64,000 nt of DNA from Mermis nigrescens (lineage: Eukaryota; Nematoda; Enoplea; Mermithida; Mermithidae). Where the stretch lies: NCBI GenBank assembly GCA_036768485.1, contig JAVLUZ010000154.1, positions 41,757,646 to 41,821,645 on the forward strand. Reading direction: 5' to 3'. The notes beneath the pieces are model-generated. The model did not search any database. It was not told the origin of the DNA and saw nothing but the letters and a program-made list of their open reading frames with translations. A program made the translations under genes and the position numbers. Positions 38,523-60,721 of this stretch are shown here, piece after piece. Each line of letters begins with the position of its first letter. Positions within the stretch are counted from its first letter, which is position 1.

Positions 38523-38689
38523 AGGTAGCGCGTTAGCGCGTACCTATAATATACTTGGGTACCCCCAACACCTGGGCACCCCCTACAGCTATAACGGGAC
38601 ACTTCTGGAAGGTGCGGTTTTTTTAGAAGAAAGATAATAAAAAAATTCGCTGCCTGTGTTTTTTTGTTTTTCTTGAAACTCAAAATTGA

Positions 38690-40930
38690 CTGTGTAAAGA
38701 AGGTGTAAAGTTTTTGTGTAACGTTATAACATAGGACAAATTTTGGGACCTTTTTACTGCGGCATGTGGACAACTGAGTATTGATGACTCGAAGGATTGA
38801 ACAGAATAGGATAATAGAGGGATGAATTCTACAGATGACACTTTTTTTGTTTTTTGAAATTCGCATTATTTATCGAACGGCAGTGTAAAGAGTGCGAAAA
38901 TCTGGGAGTGAAAAAGCACTTTTTGGTCGAGTTTTCAACCTTCCTATGTCCGATACTAACTCCGGTTATGAGGTTTTTAAAATGTTTTCTGACAGAAATG
39001 TAGAGCGGATCAAGGGCTACATTCTGCATATAAGCAAAGTCTTCTATGCTCTATGGTGAGTTAGATCCTGGGGTTTAAAGTTTACACTCTAGTGGATGGT
39101 GTAAAAAAACAGATTTTAACTAAGATTTCTCTGCCAAATTTTTCCGCTCATGAGTCAGTGCAAATCGAAGACAGCATTAATAAAGTGCCTTACAGGGGCT
39201 AAACATCGCAGCAAACCGCATTTAAAAAAACGCAATATTGAGTTATTTATGGGGGTGTAAAGTTCGAAATCAGAGGTAAAAAATGGGCTAAAAAACACGT
39301 TTTTTCCGAAGTTTGATTGATAAATCATGCCAAATAATTTTTGCAACAGAATTTTGGCACACAGGAATGTACTACGATTTAAAAGCTACAAATTGTACCA
39401 AACTGAATTTCTTTAAACTCAATGGGGAGTTCGGTACGGAATTTTAAAGTTTACAGTGTTCTAAATGATGGAAAATACGTTTTTGTTGCGTTTTTTGTTC
39501 GCCACTTTCTCCGTCCAGAAGTCGGGATAAGTCTAATAGAATAAAAATAAAGTGCTTAATATCGGATGCATGTCAAAGCAAATTGTCTATACATTAATAT
39601 TTAGCGAGTGTAAAGTCAAAAATTTGGAGTCTAAAATGCGTTTCTGTCTTGTTTTTTCTGCCTGCTTCTCCGGTTGCGAGTCAGGGACACGTTTATCAAG
39701 TCTAGAAATGAACCAGGAACCAAATTTGATATGCCAGTCTGGCACATATGTTTACACTCTACGGTGTTGTAAAGTAGTTTACACCAATTGTTAGTTTGCC
39801 CATAGAACATTATGCAGACTTAATTTTTTCATAAATATTAATCGTAATATCGGAACAATATCAAAATTACGAATCTGACTAAAATCTTCTTTACACTAGG
39901 TGTTTACATGAAGTTTACACTACATATGTATTTATCTTCGTTTTTGAGCATTCCAGAAACCTAATTTTTTCCTGGAGTCTAGAAGTTTTCAAAGGATCAT
40001 ATGTGAGACGTCACGTAGGTGCGTTTGTTTACATCCAACAGTGATTTAAAGTAGTTTACACTCATTGTTTATATGTCCTCAGACCATTGTAGAGACATAA
40101 TTTTTTCATGAATGTTGATCATAATATCCGAGTAATTTTTTACACTGCATGTTAGCCTTTGTTCTAGAGCATTGCAAAAATCCGAAATTTTTTCCTGAGA
40201 TATAAAAATTTACAGGGAATGAAATATATACGTCAGTTGGGCGCGCTTGCTTACACTCAGCAGTATTGCAAAGTGGTTTAAACCTAATGTTTATTGTCTT
40301 TAAAACATTATGGACTCATTTTTAAATAAATGTTGAAAGTAATATGGGAGCAATATCAAAATTACGAATCCGACTAAAATATTCTTTACGCTATGTGTTT
40401 GTGTAAAGTTTACATTACGTGTTAACCTTAATTCGATAGACTTGCAGAGACTTTGTAACTGAAGTCAAGAAATTTTCAAGGATTCATATGTGAGACATCA
40501 ATTAAGTGAGTTTGTTTACCCTCAAAAGTAATCTAAAGTGATTTAAAAATTATGTTCAAGTGTCCTTAGATCATTGAAGAGATGTAATTTTGTCTTAAAT
40601 GGGTTGCATTAAAGTTAAATCCTTCTTAGCCGTGTTTATAATATGTTTCACAAAATCTTGCACATGGAGAGCTATCGTTTAATTGATGTAAATTGCCTGC
40701 AAAAGTGGTTTAAAATGAACCAGCAATCACACTACTGTGCACAGAAGTCGACAAAGATATGCAGCTTTATTGTAATCATGTACATTAATAAGCCGTAAAC
40801 TGTTAGTATTCTCTACACCTAGTAGTTGTGTAAAGTTTGCACTATTCATTTGTTGTTAATATGTAGTCTATACTACAAATTTATTTTACTACCAAATTGA
40901 AGCGTTAGTGTTCCTTACATTTGATATTTG
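38690..40930. repeat. Dispersed GTGTAAAGTTTACAC motif array
   Basis: A palindrome-like motif (GTGTAAA(G)TTTACAC and half-sites TTTACACT, GTGTAAAG) recurs many times. Examples lie near 38693, 39078, 39095, 39253, 39449, 39609, 39751, 39770, 39892, 39902, 39913, 40048, 40059, 40382 and 40830. Several lie in ~200-250-bp units that also share 'CATATGTGAGACRTCA'. It is a degenerate tandem organisation without coding capacity. Confidence 0.6.
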
Positions 40931-41232
40931 CGTGAAGTTTTTGAATTTTTGCCGAAAAACTTTGCCTTCTAATTTACCAACATCCCGCCTTTTCCATTTT
41001 CTTAAAGTTTAAAATCTTTTATAAGTCTCTTAATAATTTAATAGTAGGTTTTAACTTTAAGTTTCTCTTGGTTTACAACTCTCGCTTAGCAAGCTCATTT
41101 TTCAAAACTTTTTTCATAGTGATCAGATTAGTCGCGTTTAGTTTGGAATTGGTGGACCGTCGTTATTTTATTACTCGGCTTAAATAAACCAAGTGACTAT
41201 CTTTTGATTATTTTCTTCATCGCAAATTCAAA

Positions 41233-41318
41233 CACCCAATTTTCAATTTGAAAATTGACCCAATTTTAAAATTGATCCAATTTTCAATTTGAAAATTGAA
41301 AATTGGGTGTTTTCAATT
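41233..41318. repeat. AT-rich hairpin
   Basis: CACCCAATTTTCAATTTGAAAATTG near the left pairs with CAATTTTCAATTTGAAAATTG...GGGTG on the right, around a short AATTTTAAAATT centre. It would fold into a long hairpin. Confidence 0.7.
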
Positions 41319-41616
41319 TCAAAAGTCACAACACATTGTGCTTGTGTATTGATTGAGTGCGGATTTGCAATGTGAATTCGTTGGTTAAATTTTTGTGCTT
41401 GATTATAAGTGAACTGCACATTAAGAAGAAATAACTTAATGCAGTTTTAATTTGAAAATGGATGGTGTCAATAAGGTTGTCTTGTTTAAAAAGGATAATG
41501 CTGATGTTAAGAACAATATTGTTTTCCGCGTTCTTGGACTGTTGTCATTATTGTGGCATGTTACTGATTGTGTTTACTGACTGATGTACTGAAATCACGC
41601 TAATTAAAAGTAGTGT

Positions 41617-42384
41617 ACTAGCAAAGAAAAATGCTCCGATGGAACAAAAAAGATGAATATACTTGGAATTGTGGATTATTATGGATGTAAAAGGAGGGGA
41701 CTAGGAAAAATCTACCTAAAGTCGGAAAATCTGCTAAAAATCACACTTTCTCTAAGCAACGCAAAAAATCGAAGTATATTCTGCGGCCTCTAAAAAAGTG
41801 TCTTTTTTAAATAATGTTCGAAGTTTCAGATAAGAGTGTATAAACGTAATCTATCAAGGTTACTTTTTTAAATTGCTGGCACCTGATTGATAGAAAACTA
41901 AGAGGTATTGTATTTAAAGTTCTTTTATTTTGTTATGAGCATTATAGCAAGCAAAGCAGGAGCCGATTGATTAGTGCATACAATCGTTTCGGGCATGCTA
42001 GTGTATCTACATTTAGTCTGTTTCAAGTCAACAACTTACGCGTTTCCTACTGTTTTAAACCAACCATGTCTTCAATTGTCTTCGATGTTTGCTATTTCAT
42101 TCAATTGGCTTGGAAGACTGTTAGTTTACTTAATATCATTTCCCATAGCTACTGCATAGCTAACGTGCTGCTGTTTCAATCATTGTTATGGTTGAATATT
42201 TATTTTAATCTGTTGGCCGCAGAATATACATCGATTTTTTGCGTTGCTTAGAGAAAGTGTGATTTTTAGCAGATTTTCCGACTTTAGGTAGATTTTTCCT
42301 AGTCCCTCCTTTTACATCCATAATAATCCACAATTCCAAGTATATTCATCTTTTTTGTTCCATCGGAGCATTTTTCTTTGCTAG
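41617..42384. mobile_element. Element L with ~170-bp near-perfect inverted ends
   Basis: From CTAGCAAAGAAAAATGCTCC at the left to GGAGCATTTTTCTTTGCTAG at the right. The ends are reverse complements for about 170 bp with almost no mismatch, ending near TATATTCTGCGGCC. The ~420-bp centre has a 94-codon ORF (41967-42251) of no recognised kind. It forms the right end of the insertion in gag-pol; no separate target duplication was seen. Confidence 0.75.
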
Positions 42385-42388
42385 TCAT

Positions 42389-43615
42389 TATAATAATCAA
42401 CCGCGACAAAATACACCTTTTGTGCAATTCCCAAATGAACAGCGTGGTACATACTATAACTCAAATTACCGCAGCGACAACAATTTTAATCGCCCGTATG
42501 TCACATACACTGCGGATAACCAACCCACCATGAATGTGCCCCCACCGCAGCCAACCCTTACATCTCCTCATGATGTAAACACGGTTACTGCGAAAGGGCC
42601 AGAATCTAGCGCGCGTCCTAACTTATTCGCGTCGCAAGAATTTCTCGAAGAGTACGAACGTTTACAACGTCGTCTCGCAACTTATGAAAAAATCAATCTA
42701 CCTGCATCTAAGACTTTAGATCCTAATATTCCTATTGTAAGCCATGCTGGGACAAATTTACCCACCATTCTCGTTAAAGTTCATGGCGTTGACGTACCTG
42801 CTCTCATAGATACGGGTTCACAGGTCACCATGATGACCACGTCAGCATTCTTACGTCTTGGTTTTAATTTACCACCTAAACAAGTCTCACAAGTCGTACA
42901 TGGTGTAGGCGAAATCACCGCAGTAGTTCGGTATAAAGTAAACATGACTTTAACTATCGCGGAACAATCTATCTCTACCTCAGTATCTATAATTGATCAT
43001 TTGCCGGAAGACATGCTCTTAGGATATGATTTTTGCGAATCCGCACTCATGTGGGTTAATCCTATTGAGCGCTGTGCTTTTATAAACGGCATAAAGATTA
43101 ATTTACTCTCATCTCACGAAAAATTGCAATTTCGCGCGAAACCCAACACAACTACCTCTGGTGTTGTGTGTGTGCATGTTTCGTTACCTGAGCCTGTTAT
43201 AATACAACCTAGACATGAAGTAATTACACCTGGCTATATAAGTCATGGTTCTTGCAATTTTGATTTCGCATTATTCGAACCAAATCCCGATTTTATGGAA
43301 AAAACCTCACTTTTTGTTGCTCCGTCTATAGTCGATGCTTCACAACCTCTAATACCTGTTCGCGTTTGTAACATCTCTAAAGCGCCAATTCGCATTGACT
43401 CTGGTGAAATAATAGGTTCTTTAACCTCTGATGCCGAAGTTGTGTCACATGTTTCATCTTTTGATGATAGGACACCAGAACTTTTTGCATCAATAAATAA
43501 AGCTTTAAACGGCTCCGCCGTTGATTCTAGACAACAGCAACAAATTCGTGAACTTTGTTTAAAATACGACTCAATTTTTGCATTAAAAAACGAACCTCTC
43601 GGACGTACCCCTTGA
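42389..43615 (+). pseudogene. Retroelement pol, aspartic protease part
   Basis: The frame continues from gag across the insertion. The protease active site is ALIDTGSQVTMM, with a later VSIIDHLPEDMLLGYDF block that fits the retropepsin fold. The frame closes at 43615 (GRTP then stop) in an ACCCC run, and the natural continuation is one frame over. It therefore looks like a one-base indel and not a programmed site. Confidence 0.85.
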
Positions 43616-46185
43616 TGAAACATCATATTGATACAGGGGATAATCCGCCCGTTGTTGGAAAAACTTATCGTGTTGAACATTCTAGAAGAGAATCTATGCA
43701 GAAAATTATAAATGAAATGCTTGCGGATAAAATTATTCGACCTACAACCAGCCCATGGGCAAGTCCACTATTTCTCATAGGAAAAAAGGACGGTTCCCTT
43801 AGGCCGGTCGTCGATTATCGACGGTTAAATGACGTTACTAAAACGCAAGTCTACCCTCTTCCACAATTAGACGATTATTTCGATACCTTAGGCAATGCCG
43901 CATATTTTAGCACATTAGATTTAAAATCTGGATACTGGCAAATTCCACTAGATAATAAATCTCGCGAAAAAACTGCGTTTATATGCCCTGTTGGTCATTA
44001 CGAATTTGAAGTTTTACCTTTTGGTTTAAAAAATGCGCCCGCAGATTTCCAAAGGCTAATGGAGCTCGTGCTCGCAGGTCTAAATTGGAAATCTTGTCTC
44101 GTTTACATCGATGACATAATTATTTTTTCACGCACTTTCAAAGAACATTTAAAAGATCTTGAGAATGTCTTTATTGCTCTTAAAAAGGCAAACTTACGTG
44201 TAAAGCCGGATAAATGCCATCTTGCGCATGCAGAGGTAAAATTTCTTGGCCACAGCATAAGTGCAATGGGCATCGCTCCTGATATGTCCAAAGTCGCAGA
44301 TTTAATGTCGTTTCCTGTACCAAAAACCGTGAAATCCTTGCAGAAATTCCTTGGCTTAGTCCAATGGTTTAAGAAATTCGTTAAAGATCTCGCTAAAATC
44401 GCTAAACCGTTATTCCATCTTCTTCGTAAAGATGTCGAATTTTGCTGGAAGGCCGAACACCAAACCGCCTTTGAGCTTCTGAAGAAAGCATTTACGTCCC
44501 CACCTATTTTGCAACTACCAAAATTCGATGATGAGCACCAATTTATTTTAACAACTGACGCAAGTAATTATGCGTTAGGTGCTATTTTGACGCAAAAACA
44601 TTTACCATCCAAAAATCGTTTTATTCTTAGCTACGCTAGTCGCGTGCTAAATTCTGCCAAATGTAACTATGCTACTTCGGAAAAAGAAGCGTTAGCGGTA
44701 GTGTGGGCCATCAAGCATTATCGACATTATCTTTACGGTAAAAAATTTATTGTCGAAACTGATCATCAAGCATTAACTTGGCTAGTAAACGTTAAAGACC
44801 CATCGAGTCGTTTACGCCGTTGGGGTCTCAAATTACAAGAATATGAATATGATATCGTTTATGTTCCTGGTGCATATAACTGCGCAGCTGATCTTCTTTC
44901 ACGACATCCTAAATATGATCATGCAGAACGCAAATATAAATTAGAGCGCAAAAATGTTGTTAACATCGCAAATTTAGAATCGGAAGATTCTGAGTCAGAT
45001 GATGAATCGGTTCCACCTGACCGATCGCGCGATAATGCGCCTACTGCACCAATTAATCATCCAAATGCGCAAAATAATAATCCTACTGCGCAAATCGATC
45101 CTACCAATACAAAACCACCTACATTTTGCGAACGACTATTGCTTACCGATGCTGAAAAAGCTGAAATGCTAACACCTGCGCGTTTACTCGCTGAGCAACG
45201 TGCAGATGACGAATTACATAAAATTCGCATCGCATTAAATGACTTAACAACGAAAAAATACCGTGACGAATTTTTTCTCGTAAACGATGTACTTTTTCGT
45301 AGATTCCAACCTAAGCGTTCACCAACTGTCGTTCATCAAATAGTCATACCCAAATCTTTACGTCGCTTCATATTAACCGAATTTCATGACTCTATTTTCG
45401 GAGCTCATTTTTCATCGCGCAAAATCTTGCCCGCCATACAAATGCGTTATTGGTGGCCGCGCATGGAAAATGATGTGATCGCGTGGTGTAGGAATTGTGA
45501 TGTGTGCTTACAACGTAAGGTCGCATTAAATTCCACATCCGTTCCATTGCAACCAATCGAAGTATCCGCGCCCTTTGAACTTATTGCGTGTGATTGTTTG
45601 CATATGCCGCGATCTCCCTCCGGAAATGACCAAATTGTAGTTTTTATGGATTATTTTACCAAATACGTGGAAGCTTTTGCTGTTTCTGACATAAAAGCAA
45701 CAACAATTGCAAATTTGTTATTACGAGAAATTATTCCACGTTATGGAGTTCCCAAGAAATTTTTGACAGATCAGGGGTCAAACTTTACATCTACCCTAAT
45801 TTCGGAAGTTTGTAAACTATTAAACGTTCAAAAAATATTTACAACCCCATATCACCCCCAGTGTGATGGGTTGGTGGAACGTTATAATCGCACATTGATT
45901 GATGGTTTGTCTAAGCTGAGTGCGCGATCCCAGTATGATTGGGAGCAATTTCTACCTTTCGCGTTATTTGCATATCGCGCGACTCCGCAATCATCAACTA
46001 ATATATCTCCTTTTGAAATGCTTTATGGTCGCGAACCAGCATTTCCACTTGACACTTTACTCATAAATGACTTTGTAATAAATCCGAATTTACCATCTGT
46101 TGCGGAAAAATACGTCATTGATTTAAAGCTGACTTTACAAGATCTACACGAAATTGCGTCTCAAAACTCTAGCTCAAGCGCGTAA
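43555..46185 (+). pseudogene. Retroelement pol: reverse transcriptase, RNase H, integrase
   Basis: RT motifs in order are SPWASPLFLIGKKDGSLRPV, YPLPQLDD, STLDLKSGYWQIPL, LPFGLKNAP and the catalytic YIDDIIIFS. RNase H follows (LTTDASNYALGAIL, SEKEALAVVWAIKHYRHYLY, ETDHQALTWL). Integrase has an HHCC finger (FHDSIFGAH ... CRNCDVC). Its D,D-35-E core follows, with ACDCLHMP, FLTDQGSNF, and YHPQCDGLVERYNRTL carrying the Glu. All catalytic residues are present. The frame breaks near 46165 and the integrase tail continues in another frame. Over its 876 codons this is a normal Ty3/Gypsy polyprotein. Confidence 0.93.
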
Positions 46186-46739
46186 GCAGCAAAAATCTCA
46201 ATATGACAAGTCCGTAACTCAAACAAATTTTTCTCTCTCGGATATAGTTTACCTTAATAATACATCAGTAATTCAACCTGAAATTGGTAAACTATCACCC
46301 AAACGTGTTGGTCCATATCAGAATTATCGACTTACCTACTCCTGAAACTGCGAAAATCGCGTATGTCTATAACCCTCTAATCACTCATCTCGTTCACCGG
46401 AATAGACTTCTGCCTGAGCCCAAATTACCGTACTCCGATTTAATTGTGGAAAAACACGCGTATGTCCCTGGCGATTTTGTTTTGGTAAAATTACCACATC
46501 GCCCTCTCGCCCCGGCAGTAGTCATAAGTTTTGAGGATTTACCGGGCAGGGAGCAAAAAGCTAAGGACTGCGCGCCTATACGTTTATTAAATGGCTCTAA
46601 AACAGCACATGCCGTACCATTATCTAATGTTTTCCCTTTTGCAGACCCATGGCTGCTGAAGGTACCCCAAACAAGGAGGCATTGCTGGAAGCAGCTGGTC
46701 GCCGATTCAAATTTGAGGGGCGTGATCCCGCGTCCCTAG
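46154..46739 (+). pseudogene. Retroelement integrase C-terminal tail, frameshifted
   Basis: After a frame change near 46165 the sequence reads KQQKSQYDKS...FSLSDIVYLNN and a GPY/F-type module (SPKRVGPYQ). A further break near 46318 moves to the frame with VHRNRLLPEPKL and VPGDFVLVKLPHRPLAPAVV. The pol frame closes at 46739, overlapping the ORF3 start by 91 bases in a different frame. Confidence 0.8.
46629..46653 (+). promoter_or_regulatory. Splice acceptor and start context of ORF3
   Basis: A pyrimidine tract TGTTTTCCCTTTTGCAG ends at 46644, and the ORF3 ATG begins at 46649 (context GACCCATGG). A polypyrimidine-GCAG acceptor four bases before a downstream ORF is the arrangement expected for a spliced subgenomic mRNA, as used for env in Gypsy-type errantiviruses. 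Function is inferred. Confidence 0.6.
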
Positions 46740-49700
46740 ATGAGTTTCGTTCGGCTTTGACTAATATGGCTTTGGAGCGGGGGTTGGTTCTACCAGACCC
46801 GCTGCCACAAAATGATGACAGTCGTGTTGGCGGTTTAGACGCACTTACCGCAAAAATGATAGAGCATAAAACATCACATATAGCTACAAATCATAGTAAA
46901 CGTATAAATGACCAAGAGCTCTGGTGGGAGAACAGGTTTGATAGATTCCCTTTGGCTACCCTTCGTGTGCCAAAGAAGAGACTTCTATCCACTGTTTTAA
47001 TCACCAATGACCAAGAGTCTTTTGGGGCTATTTTGGCTTTGATTCAGCCATCAAACATGACTAATGGCACGTTATTCTTAGGCTATGATTCAGAATTTGT
47101 GAATGACAGAAAAGGCAGAACCTATAAGACCTGGGATTTGCGTTTTAAGCAGCTATGTCCCACCTATCAGGACCTCCATGGCCCATTCGTTCGCTATGTC
47201 CAAGTTGCTAGCGCGAACGGTCATGTGTTCTGCTGGGACATCGCTAAGTTCCCAAAACCTCCGTTTGGGCTTCATCAGCTGCTCGAAACGCGTCTACCGA
47301 ACGTATATATGGTCTGTTACGACCCCACGCAAGACAGACTTGCGTATTTTCATGTTTACGGTCCAACTTTCGAAGAAATTTTGGCAATTCCTGATGCCGA
47401 GATTCGAAATCAACGGCATTGGAAAGATCCGTTTAGTGCAAATTTTATCGATATTCAGCCTTTGGCGAGATCGTTTACTCGCCGTCTCCATATTACAGCG
47501 CATTCACACACTTTAAAGCGCTTGGCTGAATTTTTCTTTGACATGGCTATTGATCCTAACGCGCCTGATAATTTTGGACAGGCGTGGAGTTTACCACTAA
47601 CTCGGGATATGCAACATTATTTAGCAATGGATGCCCTGATAACTATCGATGTTTTCATATTGATAGAAGGCTGCTCGCAAAATAATCGCATTACCGACGA
47701 TAGAAAGCCTATGCCAATTTCGTTTAAAGGCGACGAATCGCACGTTAAAGCTAACGAATCGAAAACTAGACGGCGTATACCGTTGTCATCTCGCAAGCCA
47801 TCACGGGGCCAGTCGACCAGCACGGCGACTGATGTCTCCGTTGATTCCGATGGCGGAGAGTTAGTCACAGTAGAGGACTTTTATGGTCCAGCTCCGCAAC
47901 CACCAGCGGCCATAGCCGCAGCCACCACCGTTGCCTCTGTAACGGAAGCGTTGGCTCATACTAATGTTTTTGATAATCCTGATCTAAAAGTTCAAGGATC
48001 GCAGGCCGTTGCCGACTCAGTTTTGGGCCCGGCTAATGCACCTGACACCGAACCTAAGTCCAAACCAACCAGCTCAAGTACCCCAGCTTCTGCGATTTCT
48101 TCGCAAACTGATATTCCTTACGATTCTCCTATGGTTGGAATAGAACCATCTATCTCCACTGAGGACGACGATTTGTCTCCTAAACGCTTAGTGATGGCGT
48201 TATCCGACGCTGAGGCGGAAAGGCAAGCAAACTTGTCGCCACCGCGTACCACACGCGCGGCACTGGCTCGAAAAGGGGCTACTACCGTTTCGCAACCGAT
48301 TGTTTCACAATCGCTTGCGGCGGACCAGCAGGCACCCTTGGGCATCGGTTCGCTCCTACCTTTACCGACTTCTCAGCCGGATTGGGTAGAGCGTCAACCT
48401 GAACCCGACGTTATCATGACAGAAATTATAGGCTTCCCACCGCCACCACAACGCTCATTACCCGCACAGGAAATCCAACAAGCAGCGTTGTCCACGCAAA
48501 TCGCGTCCCAATCCGCGCCACAAGGCGTGTCGAGCTCAGTGGCACTTACTACTCGTTTTACGGCTCCTATGGCCATGACGGGAGTGTCGAATACTGTGGC
48601 GAATATTCAACCACAGGTTATTCAAAATCCACCGTCGAATCTAGAAGTCGCAGTACCTGCGCATATTCAAGCCATACGCGAACGCATATCCGCAGAAGAG
48701 AACGCGAGAGTTCAAAATCGCTCGCGTTATGTGCAACATTTTTTCAACATGATGGAAACCATGACGCGTGAAGCGCCGTGCTATATTGCGCCTGACGTAT
48801 TGCACGAGTTACGCTCTTATCTGGGTGAAGTCGCAGGAACGCGTCTGTACGACCAGTTGGTCGAGTGTGCCCAAGTGCACTTCGACCGGGTGTACGCAGC
48901 ACATCTGCATTACGCGGCTACGACTGACACACCCTCGCGTCCTTTAGTTTGGTCTACAATCGCACAACCTTTGGCTGATGTCGATCGTGCGCCGGCACCT
49001 CGATTTATCAGCAAAATGAGCGTTTTTAACCGATTATTTTACCCTGACCAATATTTTGTGCGCACACGGTTTTTCATTACAACCGGAATGATGCTGTACG
49101 AAGTTCCTTTACAGTATCTGGTAGTGCACCCACACCTTGACGCACCGAGTGTGGTAACTGATGGCGTTGCGCACCAGATTCTTCCAGAATTTTTACCGCA
49201 CAGAATGTCACCAGCGCCAGATCATTTAGCGCCGATCTTAATATTGACGCGTCAAATGGTCGATATTTTTGATACCTTCCGAGAGTTTCAATCGTTATAC
49301 GATTCGGAGTATCGACTCTTGACGATCTTCTCAACAATAGACGTCATGCGCGCTAAAGTGCTTTTGGAATTTTTGGACAGAAAGTTCCACTTTTATGCGT
49401 ATGCCTACGGCAATGCCGCGATAGGCTGGCGCATGGTGGAGCAGCTACGTCGTATGTTGCGCGTAGCTTTCCTTGGTGAATCTTACACACCTTCGCCAAG
49501 AGAGGCCTTCCCGGAATTCCCGGAGTTAACGAGGCGAATCGAAAGTCCAACCGTTTTACATAACATGATTTGGCAAATTCGGTTAGCAACCGATCCGCCA
49601 CTTGAAGTTCCCGTTCAATTTGACCGTTTCCGAGGTCAACAAAAATCTGTGTTTTACCTTAAACACCGAATTCAAGGTGATCTAGAGAAAATTCGAAAAG

Positions 49701-50806
49701 AGAGACGGCAGGCATCCTTGCAGGACCCAAGTGGATCCTCAGCAAGCCTTGATATGCCCGAAGTCGATCTATCTCTGGAGGCACAAATTGAAATGCGTAG
49801 AGCACGCATGACGATCGAACAACGCGATCGTGAAAATCTTGCTACAGAGATGCCAAGGCGTGCGACAAAATTACGCGCCGCCGGTTCTCTCGCTGAATCC
49901 TCAGAAGTTCGTCATATGTCGGAAGACAAACATAAGGCTAAATTGAATCGATTTTATGATACGAAATCCGAGCATACCTTGCGTCGGTTAAAGAATTTGG
50001 AAAAGCAACGAGTCAGAAGACTTGTTCAAGCTGAAGTCGCAGCTAAATTAAGAGCTCGTTTAGGCCAAAAGGGATCTAAGCGGCAAGAACCGCAGTCATC
50101 CCGGCAACGTTATGCTCAAATGCATCATCGCTCACAATCACAAGTACAACCACAGGCACAAGTAAAACCACATATACAGCAACATACACGACCGCAGACC
50201 CAACCGCGGCAGCAGCAATTCACGGAATCGCGTCAGCGTTCCGAGGCATATTCACAGGCCGATGCTGGTCATCTGTTGCGCCCGCGACAGCAGCAGCCTT
50301 ATGAATATTGCCGTCAGCCACAGTCAAACCGCGGAACTCATCCGGGCCGGTCACAATCCCTTCAACGTCCGCAATGGGATCAATCGTATCGTTCACCGTT
50401 GGAACAAGATCAATCAGCCACCGGGGTCTATCAACCACAACCTCGACCGGGTCCACTATTGCCTAAACCGTGGCCTGTTACGCAATCACAACAGCGTCCA
50501 CGCGAATCTTCACGTGAACAAACGTTTGGTTTTACTCCGGAGCAATTATTCACTCCGGTGCAATCTATACCGCGTCGTTACGCGGACGACTACGAGGACG
50601 ACGACAATTACGAGGACGACGATCGACCAGTCGATCCACATCGACGCTTACGCCAACATATGTACGGGCGTAGGCAATCGCCATACCAGTATCGCGAGCG
50701 TTCGAATACGCGTCGCGAACCTGAATCGGATCGTGATTATTTTCAACGTCAACGACGTCGCGGAAAACCGCGTGGCTCGAAGGCCTATTATCAGGATCAA
50801 TATTAA
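46649..50806 (+). CDS. Retroelement ORF3 with DEDDy 3'-5' exonuclease domain
   Basis: An intact 1385-codon ORF occupying the env position. Residues ~140-340 read as an RNase D/EXD/WRN-type exonuclease. Exo I is LGYDSEF (D147, E149). After VQVASANGHVFCWDI comes Exo II with D229 (TQDRLAYFHVYG), then D268 (NFIDIQPLA), HTLKRLAEFFF, and Exo III Y324-x3-D328 (PLTRDMQHYLAMDAL). The four acidic residues and the Tyr are all present. Residues ~350-690 are Pro/Ser/Thr/Gln-rich and probably disordered. Residues ~700-1040 form an unrecognised, probably globular, aromatic-rich domain. The rest is Gln/Arg/Pro-rich with an acidic patch and a basic end (RRRGKPRGSK). There is no signal peptide or membrane anchor, so it is not an envelope protein. 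The biological substrate is unknown. Confidence 0.8.
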   Translation: MAAEGTPNKEALLEAAGRRFKFEGRDPASLDEFRSALTNMALERGLVLPDPLPQNDDSRVGGLDALTAKMIEHKTSHIATNHSKRINDQELWWENRFDRFPLATLRVPKKRLLSTVLITNDQESFGAILALIQPSNMTNGTLFLGYDSEFVNDRKGRTYKTWDLRFKQLCPTYQDLHGPFVRYVQVASANGHVFCWDIAKFPKPPFGLHQLLETRLPNVYMVCYDPTQDRLAYFHVYGPTFEEILAIPDAEIRNQRHWKDPFSANFIDIQPLARSFTRRLHITAHSHTLKRLAEFFFDMAIDPNAPDNFGQAWSLPLTRDMQHYLAMDALITIDVFILIEGCSQNNRITDDRKPMPISFKGDESHVKANESKTRRRIPLSSRKPSRGQSTSTATDVSVDSDGGELVTVEDFYGPAPQPPAAIAAATTVASVTEALAHTNVFDNPDLKVQGSQAVADSVLGPANAPDTEPKSKPTSSSTPASAISSQTDIPYDSPMVGIEPSISTEDDDLSPKRLVMALSDAEAERQANLSPPRTTRAALARKGATTVSQPIVSQSLAADQQAPLGIGSLLPLPTSQPDWVERQPEPDVIMTEIIGFPPPPQRSLPAQEIQQAALSTQIASQSAPQGVSSSVALTTRFTAPMAMTGVSNTVANIQPQVIQNPPSNLEVAVPAHIQAIRERISAEENARVQNRSRYVQHFFNMMETMTREAPCYIAPDVLHELRSYLGEVAGTRLYDQLVECAQVHFDRVYAAHLHYAATTDTPSRPLVWSTIAQPLADVDRAPAPRFISKMSVFNRLFYPDQYFVRTRFFITTGMMLYEVPLQYLVVHPHLDAPSVVTDGVAHQILPEFLPHRMSPAPDHLAPILILTRQMVDIFDTFREFQSLYDSEYRLLTIFSTIDVMRAKVLLEFLDRKFHFYAYAYGNAAIGWRMVEQLRRMLRVAFLGESYTPSPREAFPEFPELTRRIESPTVLHNMIWQIRLATDPPLEVPVQFDRFRGQQKSVFYLKHRIQGDLEKIRKERRQASLQDPSGSSASLDMPEVDLSLEAQIEMRRARMTIEQRDRENLATEMPRRATKLRAAGSLAESSEVRHMSEDKHKAKLNRFYDTKSEHTLRRLKNLEKQRVRRLVQAEVAAKLRARLGQKGSKRQEPQSSRQRYAQMHHRSQSQVQPQAQVKPHIQQHTRPQTQPRQQQFTESRQRSEAYSQADAGHLLRPRQQQPYEYCRQPQSNRGTHPGRSQSLQRPQWDQSYRSPLEQDQSATGVYQPQPRPGPLLPKPWPVTQSQQRPRESSREQTFGFTPEQLFTPVQSIPRRYADDYEDDDNYEDDDRPVDPHRRLRQHMYGRRQSPYQYRERSNTRREPESDRDYFQRQRRRGKPRGSKAYYQDQY

Positions 50807-51607
50807 TTCATAAGTTCGACGTACAGAACTTTTTGGAACTCTGCGAACGGCGTCGAATTCGACCAGCAGCTTTTTTGTCATTTTTCGTTTTTTGTCCTGA
50901 TGTGGATTCCAGGACTTCACGTATCGTTTATTTTCTGTGTAATTTTTCTCTTGTCATTTTTTCTCTTGCTGTAAAAATTTTTCTTTGACGGTGCTCTTAT
51001 TTTTCCCAGTTATCTCGCATAATTTGCCATTTTTCGTTTTTATCATTACCTCTTGTTTTAATTCGTCAGTGTCTTTAATTTTGCTCAGCATAATTTTGCC
51101 TAATCATTCCGTGTCTTAATTTTTCTTTTTGCTCAAATAGCGGTGTTACTATTATGGTATCTTAACTCTTTAACGGACAAGGGGTTAATTTACACCCAAT
51201 CTTAAAACTTTTTCAATTCAAAAATTTTTCTCATTACCCGGGGACTGAAGGAGGCTAATTGGGCAGCGAGATCGAATATTATGCAATGCTGTCCAAGACC
51301 GGAGTTCATCATTACTCGGGCAACAATATAGTTATACCTAGCGCCATTGAGAGTGTTGCTCGAGAGTTTCCTGAGTGCGAACGAGGTCATGCGTTGACCG
51401 TTATTTGTTATCGCTATTTGTTATTTTTTTGTTCTTTTATTTTCGTTTTTCACGTTTGCTCAGGATGAGGCGTTGCGGACGCCAGAGTAGAGGCGTTGCG
51501 AACGCCAGAGTGCCGAGTTATAGAAGCGTTGCAGACGCTAGCGTTGATGGTTTACCCCCGAAAAAATTCTCCACTTCGTTTCAAATTTTTTTCTATACGT
51601 GGGGGAG
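50807..51607 (+). other. Retroelement 3' region and polypurine tract
   Basis: Non-coding, T-rich region between the ORF3 stop and LTR2. It ends in a purine-rich GTGGGGGAG at 51599-51607 directly before TGTAAC, the expected plus-strand primer. Short direct repeats of GGCGTTGCGGACGCCAGAG type lie at 51471-51545 and also in the second copy. Confidence 0.7.
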
Positions 51608-52647
51608 TGTAACTGCGAGAGTTACACGTATAGGCGAACTTGCCTTAGCAGTTCGCGGTAGCCATCACATAGCCAATACTAGTAGCTATCTACGATAGTG
51701 CACTGTGGGCTATGCCTTCGGTCTTCCCACTTTTTCCCCAATTTTCAATAATAAAAAACAATAAGATACTTGTCCGGTAGCATAGAGTTAAGTGTATGAT
51801 AATAGTAATTGTTTCATGCATACCGCTTGTGTAATCGATAACATTCGATCTGAGATAAAAGTGTATCAGTATTACGTTAATTTGATCTTTGTTTATTTTA
51901 CTGTAATGGTCTCTTGAGGCCAATGTAGTTAGTGTTGTTGGCAGTCTTGTTGGCCACCGTACGATTGTATAGTCGCGTACGTTTTCGTTTTTCTTTTGCA
52001 TTATTTTGTTGTCCGGCTATAGGCCGTGGATTCTTCGTTCGAAATAAATTAGAGAAAACCTACCCAGGGGTTTTTGGATATACCGAGGGTTAGGTCGGCT
52101 ATTCCCACGTCGAGGATATCGACTCATCAGAGTGGACGGATAGGTAAATCCCATATGTTTGCTTATTCTATTTGGAAATCTTAATTCTTTTCTCAAACCA
52201 AAAATTGATCAAAAATATTATCTAATCTTTAAGGATGATTGATCAGAGTAGAGCTCGTTGTTGTTGTTTTCATAGTCTATTGTGCTACACGTATTAGGAA
52301 CCAAAAACATTTCGGATCAGGCACTGATTAGAAAATAAGTTAAATATTCAACTTGAGCTTTGAGATAGGTCAACTGACCTCCGCGGCAAATTCCGAGATT
52401 AGGTAGGTAGCCTTAGGTCTTAGGGCGTAGCTGCTGAGATCACCCGACCAGAAGCAGCCAGCAATATTAGGGCTGAGGGGATCGAAGCCGTAAGGTCTGT
52501 AAGGGTCCAAAGATCGAAAGCTATCCAGGGCTGCGCGATCGGGGCCAGCGCTAAGTGCAGACTTAAGTACCTACGTACCTAAGTAACTCTCGAAGGCAAA
52601 TACACCCGTCCTATGTCGATTCATGTATACATAGGGCGGCTCTGTAT
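51608..52647 (+). repeat. LTR2, lacking its last bases
   Basis: Nearly identical to LTR1 (about five differences by eye). It runs to ...GGCTCTGTA at 52647, where the expected TTTACA end is missing and sequence homologous to the middle of ORF3 begins. It is shared between the complete copy and the partial second copy. Confidence 0.9.
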
Positions 52648-54854
52648 AATATACAAACCACAGGAATATTCAAAATATTCCGTCAAATTTAGAAGTTGCA
52701 GTCCCTGCGCATTTACAAGCCATTTGTGAGCGCGTATCTGCAGAAGAAAGCTCGCGAGTCCAGAATCGTTCGCGTTATGTTCAACATTTCTTTAATATGA
52801 TGGAAACGATGACGCGTGAAGCGCCATGCTACATTGTCCCTGACGTTTTGCACGACTTGCGCTCATACTTAGGTGAAGTCGCAGGAACGCGCTTGTACGA
52901 CCAGTTGGTCGAAATTGCCCAAGTGCATTTTGATCGGGTGTACGCAGCACATTTGCATTACGCGTCCACGACTGACACACCTTCGCGTCCCATAGTCTGG
53001 ACTACAATTGCACAGCCTTTGACTGATGTCGATTGTGCGCCTGCACCTCAATTTATCAGCGAAATGAGCGTTTTTAACCGATTATTTTATCCTGACCAAT
53101 TTTTTGTGCGCAACCGGTTTTTTATCACAACCGGAATGATGCTGTACAAAGTTCCGTTACAGTATTTGGTAGTTCACCAACACCTCAAACCACCGAGTGT
53201 GGTGATTGATGGAATTGCGCACCAGATTCGACCTGAGTTCTTGCCGCACCGAATGAGCCCGGCGCCTGATCATTTAGCGCCGATATTAATATTGACGCGC
53301 CAAATGGTCGATATTTTTGATACCTTCCGAGAATTTCAATCTGAATACGAATCGGAGTATCGATTTTTGACAATCTTCTCAACGATAGACATCATGCACG
53401 CTAGAGTGCTGTTGGAATTTTTGGACAGAAAGTTCCACTTTTATGCGTATGCTTACGGCCATGCTGCGATAGGCTGGCGCATGGTGGAACAGCTACGTCG
53501 TATGTTGCGCGTAGCTTTCCTTGGCGAATCATACACACCTTCGCCAAGTGAGGCTTTCCCGGAATTCCCGGAATTGACCAGGCGAATCGAAAATCCAACC
53601 GTTTTGCACAATATGATTCGCCAAATTCGGTTAGCAACCGATCCGGCACTTGAAGTACCGGTTCAATTTGACCGTTTTCGAGGTCGCCAAAAATCCGTCT
53701 TTTACCTTAAACACCGTATTGAAGGCGAATTGGAGAAAATCCGTAAAGAGAGACGACAGGCATCCTCGCAAGATCCTAGTGGGTCCTCGGCGAGCCTTGA
53801 AATGCCCGAAGTCGATCTATCTCTGGATGCTCAAATTGAAATGCGTAGAGCCCGCATGATGATCAAACAACGCGATCGTGCAAATCTTGCTTCTGAGATG
53901 CCCAGGCGTGCGTCAAAATTACGCGCCGCCGGCTCTCTCGCTGAAACCTCAGGCGTTCTCCACATGTCTGAGGATGAGCATAAGGAAAGATTGAACAGAT
54001 TTTATGACACGAAATCCGAGCATACTTTGCGTCGGTTGAAAAATCTGGAGAAAGAACGAGTTAAAAGACTTGTTTGCGCTGAAGTCGCAGCAAAATTAAG
54101 AGCTCGTTTAGGCAAAAGGGGATCTGGGCGGCAAGAACCGCAATCATCCCGGCAACGATATGCACAAATGCATCATCGCTCACAATCACAGGTACAACCA
54201 CAGGCACCAGTAAAACCACACGTACAAACACACACACGACCGCAGACCCAACCGCGGCAGCAGCAATTTACGGAATCGCGTCAGCGTTCCGAGGCATATT
54301 CACAGGCCGATGCTGGTCATCTGTTGCGCCCGCAACAGCAGCAGCCTTATGAATATCGCCGTCAGCCACAGTCGAACCGCGGAGCTCATCAGGGCCGGTC
54401 GCAATCCCGTCAACGACCGCAATGGGATCAATCGTATCGTTCACCGTTGGAGCAAGATCAATCAGCCATCGGGGTCTATCAACCACAACCTCGACCGGGT
54501 CCACTATTGCCCAAACCGTGGCCTGTTACGCAATCACAACAGCGTCCACGCGACACTTCACGCGAACAATTGTTTGGTTTTACACCGGAACAATTATTCA
54601 CTCCGGTGCCACCCACACCGCGTCGTTACGCAGATGACTACGAGGAAGACGACGACGATGAGGACGATAATCGACCAGTTGACCCACATCAATGCTTACG
54701 CCAACATATGTACGGGCGTAGGCATTCGCCATACCAGTATCGCGAGCGTTCAAATACGCGTCGCGAACCTGAATCGGATCGTGATTATTTTCAACGTCAA
54801 CGACGTCGTGGAAAACCACGTGGCTCGAAGGCCAATTATCAGGATCGCTATTAA
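52648..54854 (+). pseudogene. Second ORF3 copy, 5'-truncated
   Basis: Homologous to the C-terminal half of ORF3 (from about 48602 onward). It is open from the LTR2 junction to 54854; the first internal ATG is at 52797, leaving 685 codons. It retains the globular domain (MMETMTREAPCYI..., ILTRQMVDIFDTFREFQ) and the basic tail, but the exonuclease domain is absent. Amino-acid differences are scattered (roughly one in ten). Both copies stay open, so the domain appears under coding constraint or the copies are recent. Confidence 0.85.
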
Positions 54855-55643
54855 TTTACAAGTTCGACGTACAGAACTTTTGGAACTCTGCGTTAGGCGT
54901 CGAATTCGACCAGCAGCTTTTTCGTCATTTTTCGTTTTTCGTCCTGATGTGGATCCCAGGACATCACGTATCGTTTATTTTCTGTGTAATTTTTCTCTTG
55001 TCATTTTTTTCTTGCTGTAAATTTTTCTCTGACGGTGCTCTTATTTTCCCCGTTATCTCGCATAATTTGCCATTTTTCGTTTTTAATCGTTACCTCGTGT
55101 TTTAACTCGTCAGTGTCTTTAATTTTTGCTCAGCATAATTTTGCCTTATCATTCCGTGTCTTAATTTTTGCTCAATAGCGGTGTTACTATTATGGTATCT
55201 TAACTCTTTAACGGACAAGGGGTTAATTTATACCCAATCTTAAAACCTTTTCAATTCAAAATTTTTCTCATTACCCGGGGACTGAAGGAGGCTAATTGGG
55301 CAGCGAGATCGAATATTATGCTATGCTGTCCAAGACTGGAGTTCATCATTACTCGGGCAACAATATAGTTATACCTAGCGCCATTCAGAGTGTTGCTCGA
55401 GAGGTTCCTGAGTGCGAACGAGGTCATGCGTTGACCGTTATTTGTTATCGCTATTTGTTATTTTTTCGTTCTTTTATTTTCGTTTTTCACGTTTGCTCAG
55501 GATGAGGCGTTGCGGACGCCAGAGTAGAGGCGTTGCAAACGCCGGAGTGCCGAGTTGTAGAAGCGTTGCAGACGCTAGTGTTGATGGTGTACCCCCGAAA
55601 AATTCTCCACTTCGTGTCAAATTTTTTTCTATATGTGGGGGAG
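54855..55643 (+). other. 3' region of the second retroelement copy
   Basis: Homologous to 50807-51607, with small indels. It ends in the same purine tract ATGTGGGGGAG before LTR3. Confidence 0.8.
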
Positions 55644-56852
55644 TGTAACTACGAGAGTTACACGTTTGGCGAACTTGCCTTAGCAGTTCGCGGTAGCCAC
55701 TCACATAGCCAATACTAGTAGCTATCTACGATAGTGTACTGTGGGCTATGCCTTCGGTCTTCCCACTTTTTCCCAATTTTCAATAATAAAAAACAATAAG
55801 ATACTTGTCCGGTAACATAGAGTTAAGTATATGATAATAGTAATTGTTTAATGCATACCGCTCGTATTAGCTTAGAATAATTGATCTGAGATAAAAGTGT
55901 TCCAGTATTACGTTAATTTGACGTTTGTTTATTTTACTGTAATGGTCCCTTGAGGCCAGTGTAGTTAGAGTTGTTGGCATTCTTGTTGGCAATCGTACGA
56001 GTGTATAGTTGCGTACGTTTTGTTTTTCTTTTGCATTATTTTTGTTGTCCGGCAGTTAGGCCGTGTATTCAGCGTTTGAAATAAATTGGAGAAAACCTAC
56101 CCAGGGGTTTCGGATATACCGAGGGTAAGGTCGGAAATTCCCACGTCGAGGACTTCGACTCTTCTGAGTGGACGGATAGGTAAATTCCATATGATTGCTT
56201 ATTTTGTTCGAAAACCTTAATTCTTTTCTCAAACCCAAAATTGATTAAAAATATTATTTAATCTTTAAGGATGATTGATCAGTATAGAGCTCGTTGTTGT
56301 TGTTTTCTAAGTCTATTGTGCTACACATATTAGGAACCAAAAACATTTCGGATCGAGCCTAACCAGAAAATAAGTTAAATAATCAACTTGAGGTTTGAGA
56401 TAGGTCAACTGACCTCCGCGGCAATTCCGAGATTAGGTAGGTAGCCTTAGGTCTTAGGGCGTAGCTGCTGAGATCACCCGACCAGAAGCGGTCAGCAAAT
56501 TAGGACCGAGGGGATCGAAGCCGTAAGGTTTGTGAGGGTCCAAGGATCGAAGCGATCCCAGGCTAAGCGATCGGGGCCAGCGCTAAGTGCAGATCTAAGT
56601 ACCTACGTACCTACTATTGTCTGTTTCACTCAACTCGGTCATAATTTTGAATTTATCTCTGACAATAAGCTGACAGATTGTGATTATAGCATTGATCTGA
56701 TATATAATTATCGTAACCCTCGGCTTACCGCCGATAAAAATTCTTGAAATTTATGCACGAAGTTATGTGAAAGAGACTATAAGTAAGTCTCGAAGGCAAA
56801 TACATTCGGTTCCTACGTCGATTCTGTAGACGCTAGGGGCCATGTATTTACA
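55644..56852 (+). repeat. LTR3, more diverged, with MITE insertion
   Basis: Starts TGTAACTACGAGAGTTACAC and ends CATGTATTTACA (TG...CA). It is clearly more diverged from LTR1 and LTR2 than they are from each other. It contains a 166-bp MITE (56614-56779) in a TA target within the 3' part. The right flank is a LINE RT fragment. Confidence 0.9.
56614..56779. repeat. MITE M, copy 1 (TA target), in LTR3
   Basis: The ends CTATTGTCTGTTTCACTCAA and (reverse complement) TAGTCTCTTTCACATAACTT are inverted repeats flanked by TA (56612-56613 and 56780-56781). Comparison with LTR1 shows the clean empty site CCTAAGTAA. Tc1/mariner-type by target. Confidence 0.88.
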
Positions 56853-57875: not shown

Positions 57876-58062
57876 TTATTTCTTTCGCTTTGATGATTCT
57901 TGCTGCGCTTCTGGTTCTGCTCCCCTCTTCTTGCCTTCTTTAGCAGTTTTCAAAAGCTGACCCAAGCCGAACGGATCATCGCCTTCAGATTTTTCGAACA
58001 TCACTGGACCTTCTCTCCTTGCGCCCGCATCAGCTCCAGAAAAGCCCTTGTCCGGCGCAAAT
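57876..58062 (-). CDS. SNW1: SNW1/SKIP last coding exon
   Basis: The final exon with stop codon. It encodes FAPDKGFSGAD, then REGPVMFE and DDPFGLGQLLKTAKEG, followed by a Lys/Arg-rich end (SSKRKK). These are the conserved C-terminal features of SNW1 (PDKxFSG, REGPVxFE, DPFGLxxFL, basic nuclear-localisation-like tail). The acceptor is TTTTTTCAG (rc of 58063-58071), and phase joins the preceding exon (CG|A gives Arg). Confidence 0.93.
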
Positions 58063-59081
58063 CTGAAAAAAGAAAAAATTATAACATTAAAAATAGGCGC
58101 CTTAAAATGTATTTTATCTGTTTCCATTATCTCTGCAATAAACATTGACTTGACTTGACTGAAAAAAGTAAATATTACGCAAAGACTAGGAAAAATTTTT
58201 TTAAAATAACTTAAAAGTGAAAAATACCTACTTTAAATATACTTTGGAGAACTTTTTAATCTTATTATCCTTTACAAACTTTAAACTCATGTAGGATAGC
58301 AACTAACGATGCAGGCCACAACAAACTTCTCTTTGAATTAAAAATCACAACCGTTCGAGGATCTTCTTTGCAAAGTTTGCACGCACGTTGTATGCATACA
58401 TGATTTGGGGGAGGGCTGGGTGGGTTTAACCAAAATTGTTATACGTAACAATAAGCTACGAAAAGTGAAGTTTTTCGGTCGCACGCACTCAAGGCAAATT
58501 ATAGAAAATACGCACATACATGCTTCACATAAAGTCCAAAAATTTGAACATTTTATGCAATTTTTTCATTTTTCCTTAAATTATATAAATATTAAACGGA
58601 TTTTTCGGCCAAACTGGAGCGACGGACGACCATACGTGTTCCTGGGGGTTGACCCCCGGAATGGCAACTGACCCCCCTCCGCGATACGGCTGCGACCCCC
58701 AGAAAAGTCGATTTTTCGGAAAAATTGTAAAAAGTGTGCCTTTTTGGGCGTTTCTTTAGATCATGTTTGGCTCAAACGTCTCAAATTTTCGGCGCTTCGC
58801 GCCATGTACAAAGTTTTTGACTATGTTTGGTACAATTTTCTCTATTTTTTTCGGAATTTTTTTCCAGAATTTTTTTGTTTTTGTGTTCTAGAAAGAATGA
58901 GCATTGTCCGAAACGTCTAAAAACCGTGTTTTTGATGGGTACCCGTCGTTTTTAAGCCCAAAAAGACACTTTTTTCAAATTTTTGGGCCTTTTCCCCAAA
59001 ATTCCCATGCTGTACATGTGCGGCGGCGACTGAAGCTTAAATACGGCCCACTGTGCATAAACGTACGTAAAGTGCTCTCAC
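58063..59081 (-). other. SNW1 intron, ~1.0 kb
   Basis: Bounded by a GTGAGA donor (rc of 59076-59081) and a TTTTCAG acceptor. It contains a CGGCGCTTCGCGCC hairpin motif at about 58791 and G/C-run-rich sequence at 58640-58700, probably TE debris. Confidence 0.7.
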
Positions 59082-59242
59082 CGATTCGTATTAATAATTT
59101 TATCCAAATCATCGCCATAAATATCCTTGTCTAAGTTTTTGCCTGGTCTATAAATCGATTGAGATATGCCTTCATTAGCGAGCCAGGGTTTAGTGTAAAC
59201 TGCGTACGTTTCGTCATCAAAACCGCCTCCGGAATCGAGCCC
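59082..59242 (-). CDS. SNW1: SNW1/SKIP exon
   Basis: A 161-nt exon reading GLDSGGGFDDETYAVYTKPW, then SQSIYRPGKNLDKDIYGDDL and KIINTNR. This is the strongly conserved SNW1 block (SxSIYRPxKNLDKDxYGDDL). The acceptor is CTTTAG and the donor GTGAGA. It joins the next exon in frame. Confidence 0.93.
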
Positions 59243-59697
59243 CTAAAGCAGAATATAAAACTGAACTGACTAATACGATCAATCAATACTTTGCTAATTA
59301 TGTACGTATTTATTTATGTTAAAGTAAATCCAGCGATCAGAGTTCGGCTTTGAATTGTAAAAGTGAACAATAGTAGTGTTCAAGACGGCAATGTAAGGAA
59401 GTTAATCTACAAAAATTTCAATTGCCCTTCCGGAACGTACGATGAGTAAACCTTATTAACGCACTTTAAAGCCAAAAAATCGCTAAAAACGCAAAGAAAA
59501 ACATATTTCCTAATAAAGACATCCTATGTTATAAGTATATGTTGCAAGGGCCAAACAATCCTTAAGGATTGTTAAGTGTTCAAATTTCTTAGCGACAACT
59601 GACAATCCAAAAACAATATTAGTGCAATCTAGGAAATCCTTTTGTTTCGCATAGTTGTAAATGATACCAGAACAAATAACAGCAAAAGTCGACTAAC

Positions 59698-59818
59698 TTT
59701 CGATTGGTTGAAAAGCCGTTGATCAAACTGCGTTTCATCCGATCGAATTTTCGCGTCAGGCAAACCAAGAGCAATCTGCTCACTAATATCTCGCTCTTTA
59801 TCGCGTCGTAATTTGGCC
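59698..59818 (-). CDS. SNW1: SNW1/SKIP exon
   Basis: A 121-nt exon reading AKLRRDKERDISEQIALGLP, then DETQFDQRLFNQSK. It matches the conserved RDISExIALG and QFDQRLFNQ-K motifs of SNW1. The acceptor is TTATTTTAG and the donor GTTAGT. The first base completes the Gln codon left open by the microexon. Confidence 0.93.
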
Positions 59819-60493: not shown

Positions 60494-60721
60494 ATGCCAA
60501 AAAGCATTTCTAGTCCTATCTGGAACTATTTTACGCTAGCTGATGACGAAACTAAATCGCAATGTAATCTCTGCGCAACAAAACTTTCCAGAAGCGGTGG
60601 AGGGGTACCACCTGTGTGAAAAAGCATCTGCAAACTAAGCATGTGGCGGATTATAAAAAGTTCAAAGCAGAGGAGTCCCAGCAGATCGAAGAAAAGGAAA
60701 AATATATTTTTGTTAAGCACA
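60494..60721 (+). pseudogene. hAT transposase BED zinc finger remnant
   Basis: Reads PIWNYFTLADDETKSQCNLC, then KLSRSGGG, a frame break, and KKHLQTKH. The W/F, CxxC and HxxxxH pattern is a BED-type zinc finger, the DNA-binding N-terminus of hAT transposases. It is broken by a stop at about 60617. Confidence 0.75.

Follow-up and report, generated by a model that had tools for sequence, protein, structure and literature searches.

Structure of the Element and Position of ORF3

The window, i.e., the whole stretch of 64,000 nt of Mermis nigrescens DNA that was analyzed, contains a Ty3/Gypsy retrotransposon of 18.2 kb, which spans positions 34425–52647 and carries a third open reading frame (ORF3) with a domain that resembles DEDDy 3′-5′ exonucleases. 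As claimed in a preliminary description of this DNA, ORF3 comprises 1385 codons (46649–50806) and lies after the integrase and before the 3′ long terminal repeat (LTR), i.e., in the env position. The LTRs, the coding regions, and the motifs of the element given here are all on the plus strand. The two LTRs (34425–35466 and 51606–52647, 1042 bp each) are 99.52% identical in an ungapped alignment. The 3′ LTR as aligned has the termini TGTAAC...CTCTGTA(T), and it is adjoined by the polypurine tract GGGGGAG (51601–51607), which was recognized by eye.

The gag region (36041–38528) consists of two open stretches in different frames (36041–37615 and 37626–38528), which have a weak similarity to Retrotrans_gag (PF03732, E 0.0025, under the cut-off) and, by eye, a CCHC zinc knuckle. 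The pol region encodes an aspartic protease (42422–43615; PF13650, E 4e-12), followed by reverse transcriptase, RNase H, and integrase with H2C2 and rve domains (43555–46185; PF00078, PF17917, PF17921, and PF00665). The C-terminal tail of the integrase (46186–46739) contains a GPY motif and a PWWP-like stretch (about 46470–46643), and its frame is broken in the window copy. The assignment to Ty3/Gypsy is based on the LTRs, the gag region with its sub-threshold match, and the order protease, reverse transcriptase, RNase H, integrase, all of which are present. Between gag and pol about 3.8 kb (38529–42385, approximate boundaries) are devoid of ORFs of 150 or more amino acids, and this part is probably a later insertion. 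It contains perfect inverted arms of 82 bp (41617–41698 and 42304–42385), and words similar to GTGTAAA/TTTACAC were found by eye to be abundant in it. Because of this stretch and of frame breaks in gag and in pol (at the integrase end), the window copy is not intact, while its ORF3 has stayed open. By eye there is no clear target-site duplication around the element, and neither Rfam families nor tRNA genes were detected in the window.

Within ORF3 four parts were discerned in addition to the N-terminal residues. The putative exonuclease domain (residues 141–345, 47069–47683) is followed by a linker that is rich in Ala, Ser, and Pro (residues 351–690, 47699–48718), a conserved region to which no fold could be assigned (residues 691–1035, 48719–49753), and a basic tail (residues 1036–1385, 49754–50803), with 54 Arg and 49 Gln in residues 1035–1385. 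For residues 691–1035 no Pfam match was found, and a PDB sequence search gave no relative at an E value below 0.9. The whole ORF3 has seven cysteines in 1385 residues, no hydrophobic segment of transmembrane strength, and no match to a Pfam env family. A pattern scan revealed a sequence resembling a 3′ splice site, a polypyrimidine tract plus AG, at 46630–46644; it is the only match to the pattern used in positions 46001–46800, and it ends 5 nt ahead of the ATG of ORF3. This would fit expression from a spliced mRNA, as has been reported for other ORF3s and for env genes.

Similarity of ORF3 to DEDDy Exonucleases

The preliminary description had assigned ORF3 to the RNase D/EXD/WRN group of DEDDy exonucleases and had named the residues of three motifs, and these are indeed present in the right order: Exo I as D-x-E (D147 and E149), Exo II as D229, and Exo III as Y-x3-D (Y324 and D328). 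A context of Exo I of the type hydrophobic-DxE-[FTWMC] was obtained in only 0.3% of the shuffles of an 80-residue stretch. Two DEDDy profiles were compared with ORF3 using hhalign. With a profile of 16 bacterial sequences, i.e., the RNase D of E. coli and 15 plasmid-borne relatives, a probability of 30 and a score of 31.1 were obtained; none of 300 shuffles equaled this score (best 27.9), and the best of 22 decoy tiles reached 16.8. With a second profile of 55 sequences, including viral ones, which remained from 72 after the removal of near-duplicates and of fragments under 90 aa, the probability was 71 and the score 37.7. Again none of 300 shuffles was equal (best 21.5), and the reversed sequence had a probability of 0.3. 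When all open stretches of at least 100 aa in the window were cut into 86 six-frame tiles, the exonuclease tile ranked first with 76, followed by the overlapping ORF3 tiles with 10 and 6, and the next value was 2.6. A profile built from residues 91–365 of 30 genomic copies (see below) matched the DEDDy profile with a probability of 81.6, which none of 200 column shuffles equaled, while the values for residues 351–690, 691–1035, and 1036–1385 were 0.1–0.2, and residues 1–275, in which the domain is cut, gave 6.8.

Independent of any cellular seed sequence, a profile was made from five representative retroelement ORF3s, i.e., that of the window and those of the loci L103–L106, which were picked from eight. 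In a comparison with PDB the WRN exonuclease was found first (E 9.9e-12), followed by NrnC, Nibbler, Egalitarian, and EXD2. Across the five representatives, which belong to three lineages, 22 columns are invariant, and these include the catalytic residues. An AlphaFold model of the domain was built with an alignment containing 38 of 39 listed viral DEDDy sequences, and the predicted structure has an RNase H-like exonuclease fold. The fold matches included Egalitarian and EXD1, with 11–21% identity in the listed alignments, the rows for Egalitarian being highest (20–21%); differences in Z below 1 were not read as an indication of the subfamily. The homology of the window ORF3 to the family runs via intermediates, namely other ORF3s, which it matches with 56 bits and which themselves pass the PF01612 threshold (28.9–40.4 bits). 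Thus, profile search and predicted structure both lead to DEDDy relatives with aligned catalytic residues, as the earlier assignment would predict, and on sequence grounds the domain is placed in the set of WRN, EXD2, MUT-7, and RNase D.

Direct searches were less informative. PF01612 was the only Pfam family reported for the excised domain, below threshold. Protein searches with ORF3 residues 1–400 (5932 candidates) and with the domain alone (548 candidates) gave no match. No relatives were found in viral contigs (searched with ORF3, its tail, and pol), in genome contigs (ORF3 and pol), or in plasmids (ORF3), and searches of PDB by single sequence, of NCBIfam, and of PHROGs returned nothing useful.

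Copies in the Genome and Selection

The genome of 524 Mb on 860 contigs was searched for further copies, and 34 of 3701 candidates were scored, resulting in 35 rows that correspond to 34 places, the window's own included, since one place was split over two rows. ORF3 is thus present at at least 34 places on many contigs, most of which match over residues 1–1385, with identities of 82–98% apart from the window's own. Thirty of these places, including the window copy, were studied as loci (L073–L102). An integrase is located upstream on the same strand and at nearly equal spacing in 29 of the 30, the exception within the stretch examined being L074, so that multiple genomic copies with the same arrangement, which had been proposed as a check, do exist. 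The residues D147, E149, D229, W313, L317, Y324, and D328 are identical in all 30 copies. This does not apply to D268, for which a supporting role had been suggested: it is D in 28 copies and N in two, and the 22 columns that are invariant in the five representatives do not include it. A fraction of 0.69 of the sites in the exonuclease part (152 of 221) does not vary, compared with 0.46–0.56 in the other parts of ORF3.

Ratios of nonsynonymous to synonymous substitutions (dN/dS) were determined by the method of Nei and Gojobori with the 18 full-length copies that are free of stops (153 pairs); 12 of the 30 were dropped, 11 because of stops and one because of an incomplete match. The exonuclease part had a value of 0.050 and the integrase one of 0.056; these and the following values are descriptive, as the compared copies are the best-scoring ones and mutually related, and the pairs share history. 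For residues 691–1035 the value was 0.107, for the tail 0.156, for residues 1–129 0.215, for the linker, the fastest-evolving part, 0.28, and for the whole ORF3 0.155. The contrast between the parts of ORF3 is clear, and the exonuclease part is under purifying selection of the same strength as the integrase. As a side observation, the integrase pieces of the 30 loci are 89–100% identical to that of the window, versus 82–97% for the other ORF3s. Either ORF3 diverges faster than the integrase, or it was exchanged among nearly identical elements.

Related ORF3s Behind Other Gypsy Integrases

A search of the same genome with PF01612 yielded 41 matches, all over the cut-off, 37 of which are in open frames of 226–547 aa. 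Eight were picked by choice and not at random, i.e., seven long open frames, including L108 and L109, which are 95% identical, and one multi-exon gene (L107), of which the tested exon matches EXOSC10/Rrp6. All seven chosen ORFs are located downstream of a Gypsy integrase that is 38–49% identical to that of the window, and in a separate Pfam scan the four ORF3s that were scanned all exceeded the PF01612 cut-off (28.9–40.4 bits). A hidden Markov model (HMM) of the seven domains, which had been excised by motif so that the motifs are presupposed in the seeds and not in the window ORF3, found residues 143–340 of the window ORF3 with 56.2 bits and with Exo I, II, and III aligned, while the maximum of 500 shuffles was 4.3. 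The preliminary description had proposed that a host exonuclease was captured. This was not borne out: because ORF3 matches the other retroelement ORF3s with 56 bits versus 13 bits for PF01612, a recent origin from a cellular gene belonging to this family can be dismissed.

The seven ORF3s fall into two groups, A (L103, L104, and L106) and B (L105, L108, L109, and L110), with identities of 51–95% within and 24–33% between the groups. The window exonuclease is 21–22% identical to group A and 24–25% to group B, and the window integrase 38–39% and 46–49%, respectively. Both proteins are thus nearer to B than to A, and there was no sign of a swapping of ORFs between lineages as proposed for bdelloids, although the integrases were compared only with that of the window and seven loci are too few to exclude exchange. 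The sequences suggest that either the DEDDy domain predates the divergence of the integrases, or these Gypsy elements acquired it repeatedly from one shared source.

At its end the integrase of L105 (L105:308–2206) carries a PWWP domain (PF00855, E 1.6e-10, above the cut-off), a kind of domain by which methylated histones are read; for the tail of the window integrase (46470–46643) the match is below it (E 0.0069, 17.3 bits versus 25.6). A PWWP-tailed integrase, in which PWWP would take the place of a chromodomain, may let these elements choose their targets.

Neighboring Sequences

Directly after the 3′ LTR an older ORF3 tail and an LTR are located (52648–56613). The tail (residues ~652–1385; 52650–54854, plus strand) has 88.6% protein identity and lacks the exonuclease part, and the LTR-like sequence of this older copy (55642–56613, plus strand) is 91% identical. 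Comparison of the two ORF3 tails of the window gave a dN of 0.062 and a dS of 0.396. No match to the missing upstream half was detected in the rest of the window, and a simple nested insertion of two ORF3 copies was rejected, because no sequence to the left of the element matches that half. The arrangement is either an unexplained rearrangement or an assembly join.

Outside the element, a piece of a homologue of the splicing factor SNW1/SKIP was found on the minus strand (57882–63810), with PF02731 at 63511–63810; its end near 58 kb was placed by eye and has no Pfam match. In PDB scores it is closer to the human protein than to that of C. elegans. Non-LTR retrotransposon pieces are also on the minus strand (10845–12682 and 16973–17428), with a reverse transcriptase above the cut-off (PF00078) and an endonuclease and a PHD-finger-like piece that are both below it.

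Possible Function of ORF3

The analyses established the position of ORF3, its multi-copy state, its exonuclease homology and fold, the unchanged catalytic residues, and purifying selection. Judged from the sequences, it is quite probable that ORF3 is an active exonuclease that is used by the element. It would be an accessory gene that has long been part of several Ty3/Gypsy lineages in this genome, expressed from a spliced mRNA via the putative 3′ splice site that precedes its ATG by 5 nt, and the enzyme would remove nucleotides from the 3′ ends of nucleic acids by a two-metal-ion mechanism.

Several points weigh against an active exonuclease. The order and spacing of the motifs, which the preliminary description had pointed out, had to be dropped as evidence: the residues are there, but the bare pattern DxE..D..YxxxD with loose spacing arises in 15% of the shuffles of residues 1–420, and it is the profile, family, and selection data that settle the identity. 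The window ORF3 reaches only 13.2–13.6 bits with PF01612 (cut-off 23.6; E 0.058–0.076). Eight held-out genuine DEDDy sequences scored 98.8–100, far above ORF3, which must therefore be a very divergent member. Exo I was not placed by hhalign alone, but by MAFFT and by the seven-domain ORF3 HMM. AlphaFold with the single ORF3 sequence gave a predicted local distance difference test (pLDDT) value of 34, and that model was discarded; the good model depends on an alignment of DEDDy relatives and is thus partly circular. The invariance of five residues is modest evidence in a domain in which 152 of 221 sites are invariant anyway, the compared copies share history, and 11 of the 30 copies have in-frame stops in ORF3. 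Furthermore, catalytic conservation names no substrate, and expression, splicing, and activity are all predicted.

Four other explanations were weighed. Egalitarian is catalytically inactive, and it is among the fold matches together with EXD1, its rows having the top identity of 20–21%. ORF3 could thus have retained the DEDDy fold and act mainly as an RNA-binding adaptor like these two proteins, e.g., in the carriage or export of genomic RNA, and the basic Arg/Gln-rich tail would fit such a role. EXD1 is also described as inactive in the available text of one study (PMC5408684), and the unrelated CERV of Cer1 is a spliced protein in env position that is required for genomic RNA export, according to another (PMC10309623). 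An adaptor is nevertheless improbable, as the five catalytic residues are unchanged in 30 of 30 copies and in three lineages, unlike in Egalitarian and EXD1. That ORF3 is a hitch-hiking passenger without benefit would agree with the bdelloid elements, for which the available text (PMC5408684) reports no deviation from neutral evolution within the genome. It is disfavored by the selection test, with a dN/dS of 0.05 for the exonuclease part, and by the presence of ORF3 behind integrases that have diverged to 38–49% identity, and is very improbable.

An envelope-type protein for entry or egress would be expected exactly at this position between integrase and 3′ LTR, and the splice-site-like sequence before the ATG would fit as well, but ORF3 has an enzyme domain instead of a Pfam env match and seven cysteines in its 1385 residues, and the lack of a transmembrane segment makes an env role unlikely; in sum, this explanation is extremely improbable. 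The probability of a recent capture or a chimeric artefact, i.e., a host exonuclease exon that was joined or misassembled onto one copy, is next to nil. The older neighboring copy without the exonuclease part and the lack of a clear target-site duplication by eye would be in line with it, but at least 34 places on many contigs, the upstream integrase in 29 of 30 loci, and homologous ORF3s behind 38–49% identical integrases refute a capture by, or a chimera of, one copy for the ORF3 family of the window.

If ORF3 is an active exonuclease, it could act on RNA from the element's life cycle or from the small-RNA silencing of the host. Nibbler and MUT-7 act in small-RNA pathways. RNA 3′ ends are favored as substrate, because the nearest cellular relatives act on 3′ ends of RNA or DNA and because the C-terminal part is rich in Arg and Gln; the leading roles would be to interfere with silencing by small RNAs or to process the RNA of the element, with clean-up in reverse transcription as a close third. 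A trimming of RNA or small-RNA 3′ ends that protects the element is a reasonable possibility, though not the likelier outcome, and a clean-up of RNA or cDNA ends in reverse transcription or integration is doubtful. It is rather unlikely, yet tempting to speculate, that ORF3 is a dedicated silencing-suppressor nuclease of Gypsy elements. In such a protein a WRN/MUT-7-like exonuclease would trim or degrade host small RNAs or their precursors at the 3′ ends, and a faster-evolving part fused to it would serve for targeting; in at least one sister lineage the integrase of the elements has a PWWP chromatin reader of its own.

The DEDDy exonuclease in env position is thus not the oddity of one element, but a gene that several old Gypsy lineages of a single genome have retained, and the selection on it is strong. 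The use that a retrotransposon makes of a 3′-5′ exonuclease becomes testable, as many copies exist and the conservation of the active site can be compared with copy number or small-RNA levels. If it were true that ORF3 counters small-RNA silencing, transposons would have a counter-defense of a novel kind.

Comparison With Known Systems

The ORF3 domain has the fold, the motif order, and the catalytic residues in common with WRN, EXD2, Nibbler/MUT-7, RNase D, and NrnC (PF01612). It differs from the WRN/EXD2 group in that it is part of a retroelement and not a host gene, with 11–21% identity in the listed fold alignments, and, by eye, in a stretch of about 20 extra residues after Exo I and ahead of the next strand, which is found in the window ORF3 and in other ORF3s. 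Env-bearing errantiviruses encode a fusion protein with a transmembrane anchor in ORF3, while the window ORF3 showed neither a segment of transmembrane strength nor a match to an env family. Cer1 of Caenorhabditis elegans is also a Gypsy/Ty3 element with a spliced non-env ORF in env position, but its CERV has H, M, and G domains, and an exonuclease is never mentioned in the main text of the paper (PMC10309623).

The preliminary description knew of no Gypsy family with an RNase D-like exonuclease. This has to be corrected, since Rodriguez, Kenefick, and Arkhipova described RNase D-like DEDDy ORF3s in the bdelloid LTR elements Juno1/2 and Vesta2/5 in 2017 (PMC5408684, as are the statements on bdelloids that follow, in so far as its text was available). 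DEDDy ORFs are also reported from Athena/Terminons, LTR elements are stated to have gained DEDDy at least twice, and roles in 3′-end processing or silencing were suggested for the bdelloid ORF3s. The Terminons/Athena, giant bdelloid elements, share the DEDDy exonuclease ORFs but are Penelope-like and not LTR elements, according to the part of PMC6431247 that was at hand. Apart from the bdelloid elements and papers citing them, the literature searches, from which subscription papers were mostly absent, revealed no LTR element that carries a DEDDy ORF3; one such paper cites two further papers beside the bdelloid work in a single sentence of its available text (PMC6338049).

Juno and Vesta resemble the window element in having LTRs, gag-pol, and a DEDDy ORF3 after pol, in more than one lineage, and their ORF3s are reportedly spliced. 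A dUTPase between protease and reverse transcriptase is a feature of Juno/Vesta as described, while the window ORFs for the protease and for reverse transcriptase to integrase gave no match to it at E values up to 1. The LTRs of the window element have 1042 bp and the termini TGTAAC...CTCTGTA(T), compared with 159–551 bp and TG..CA reported for Juno/Vesta, and the DEDD residues are intact in the window, whereas a change to DEED is described for bdelloids. Also unlike Juno/Vesta, as far as their description was available, are the length of ORF3 (1385 aa) with its large extra region, the PWWP located within the integrase tail or close to it, and a dN/dS far below 1. Because of the missing dUTPase match, the longer LTRs, the intact DEDD, and the different integrase tail, the window family is a lineage different from Juno/Vesta, set apart by these described features and not by a comparison of ORF3 sequences. 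Taken together, what is new is another element lineage, the presence of several diverged lineages in one genome, the strong constraint on the catalytic domain, the extension of 1,000 aa, and the PWWP-tailed integrase of a sister lineage.

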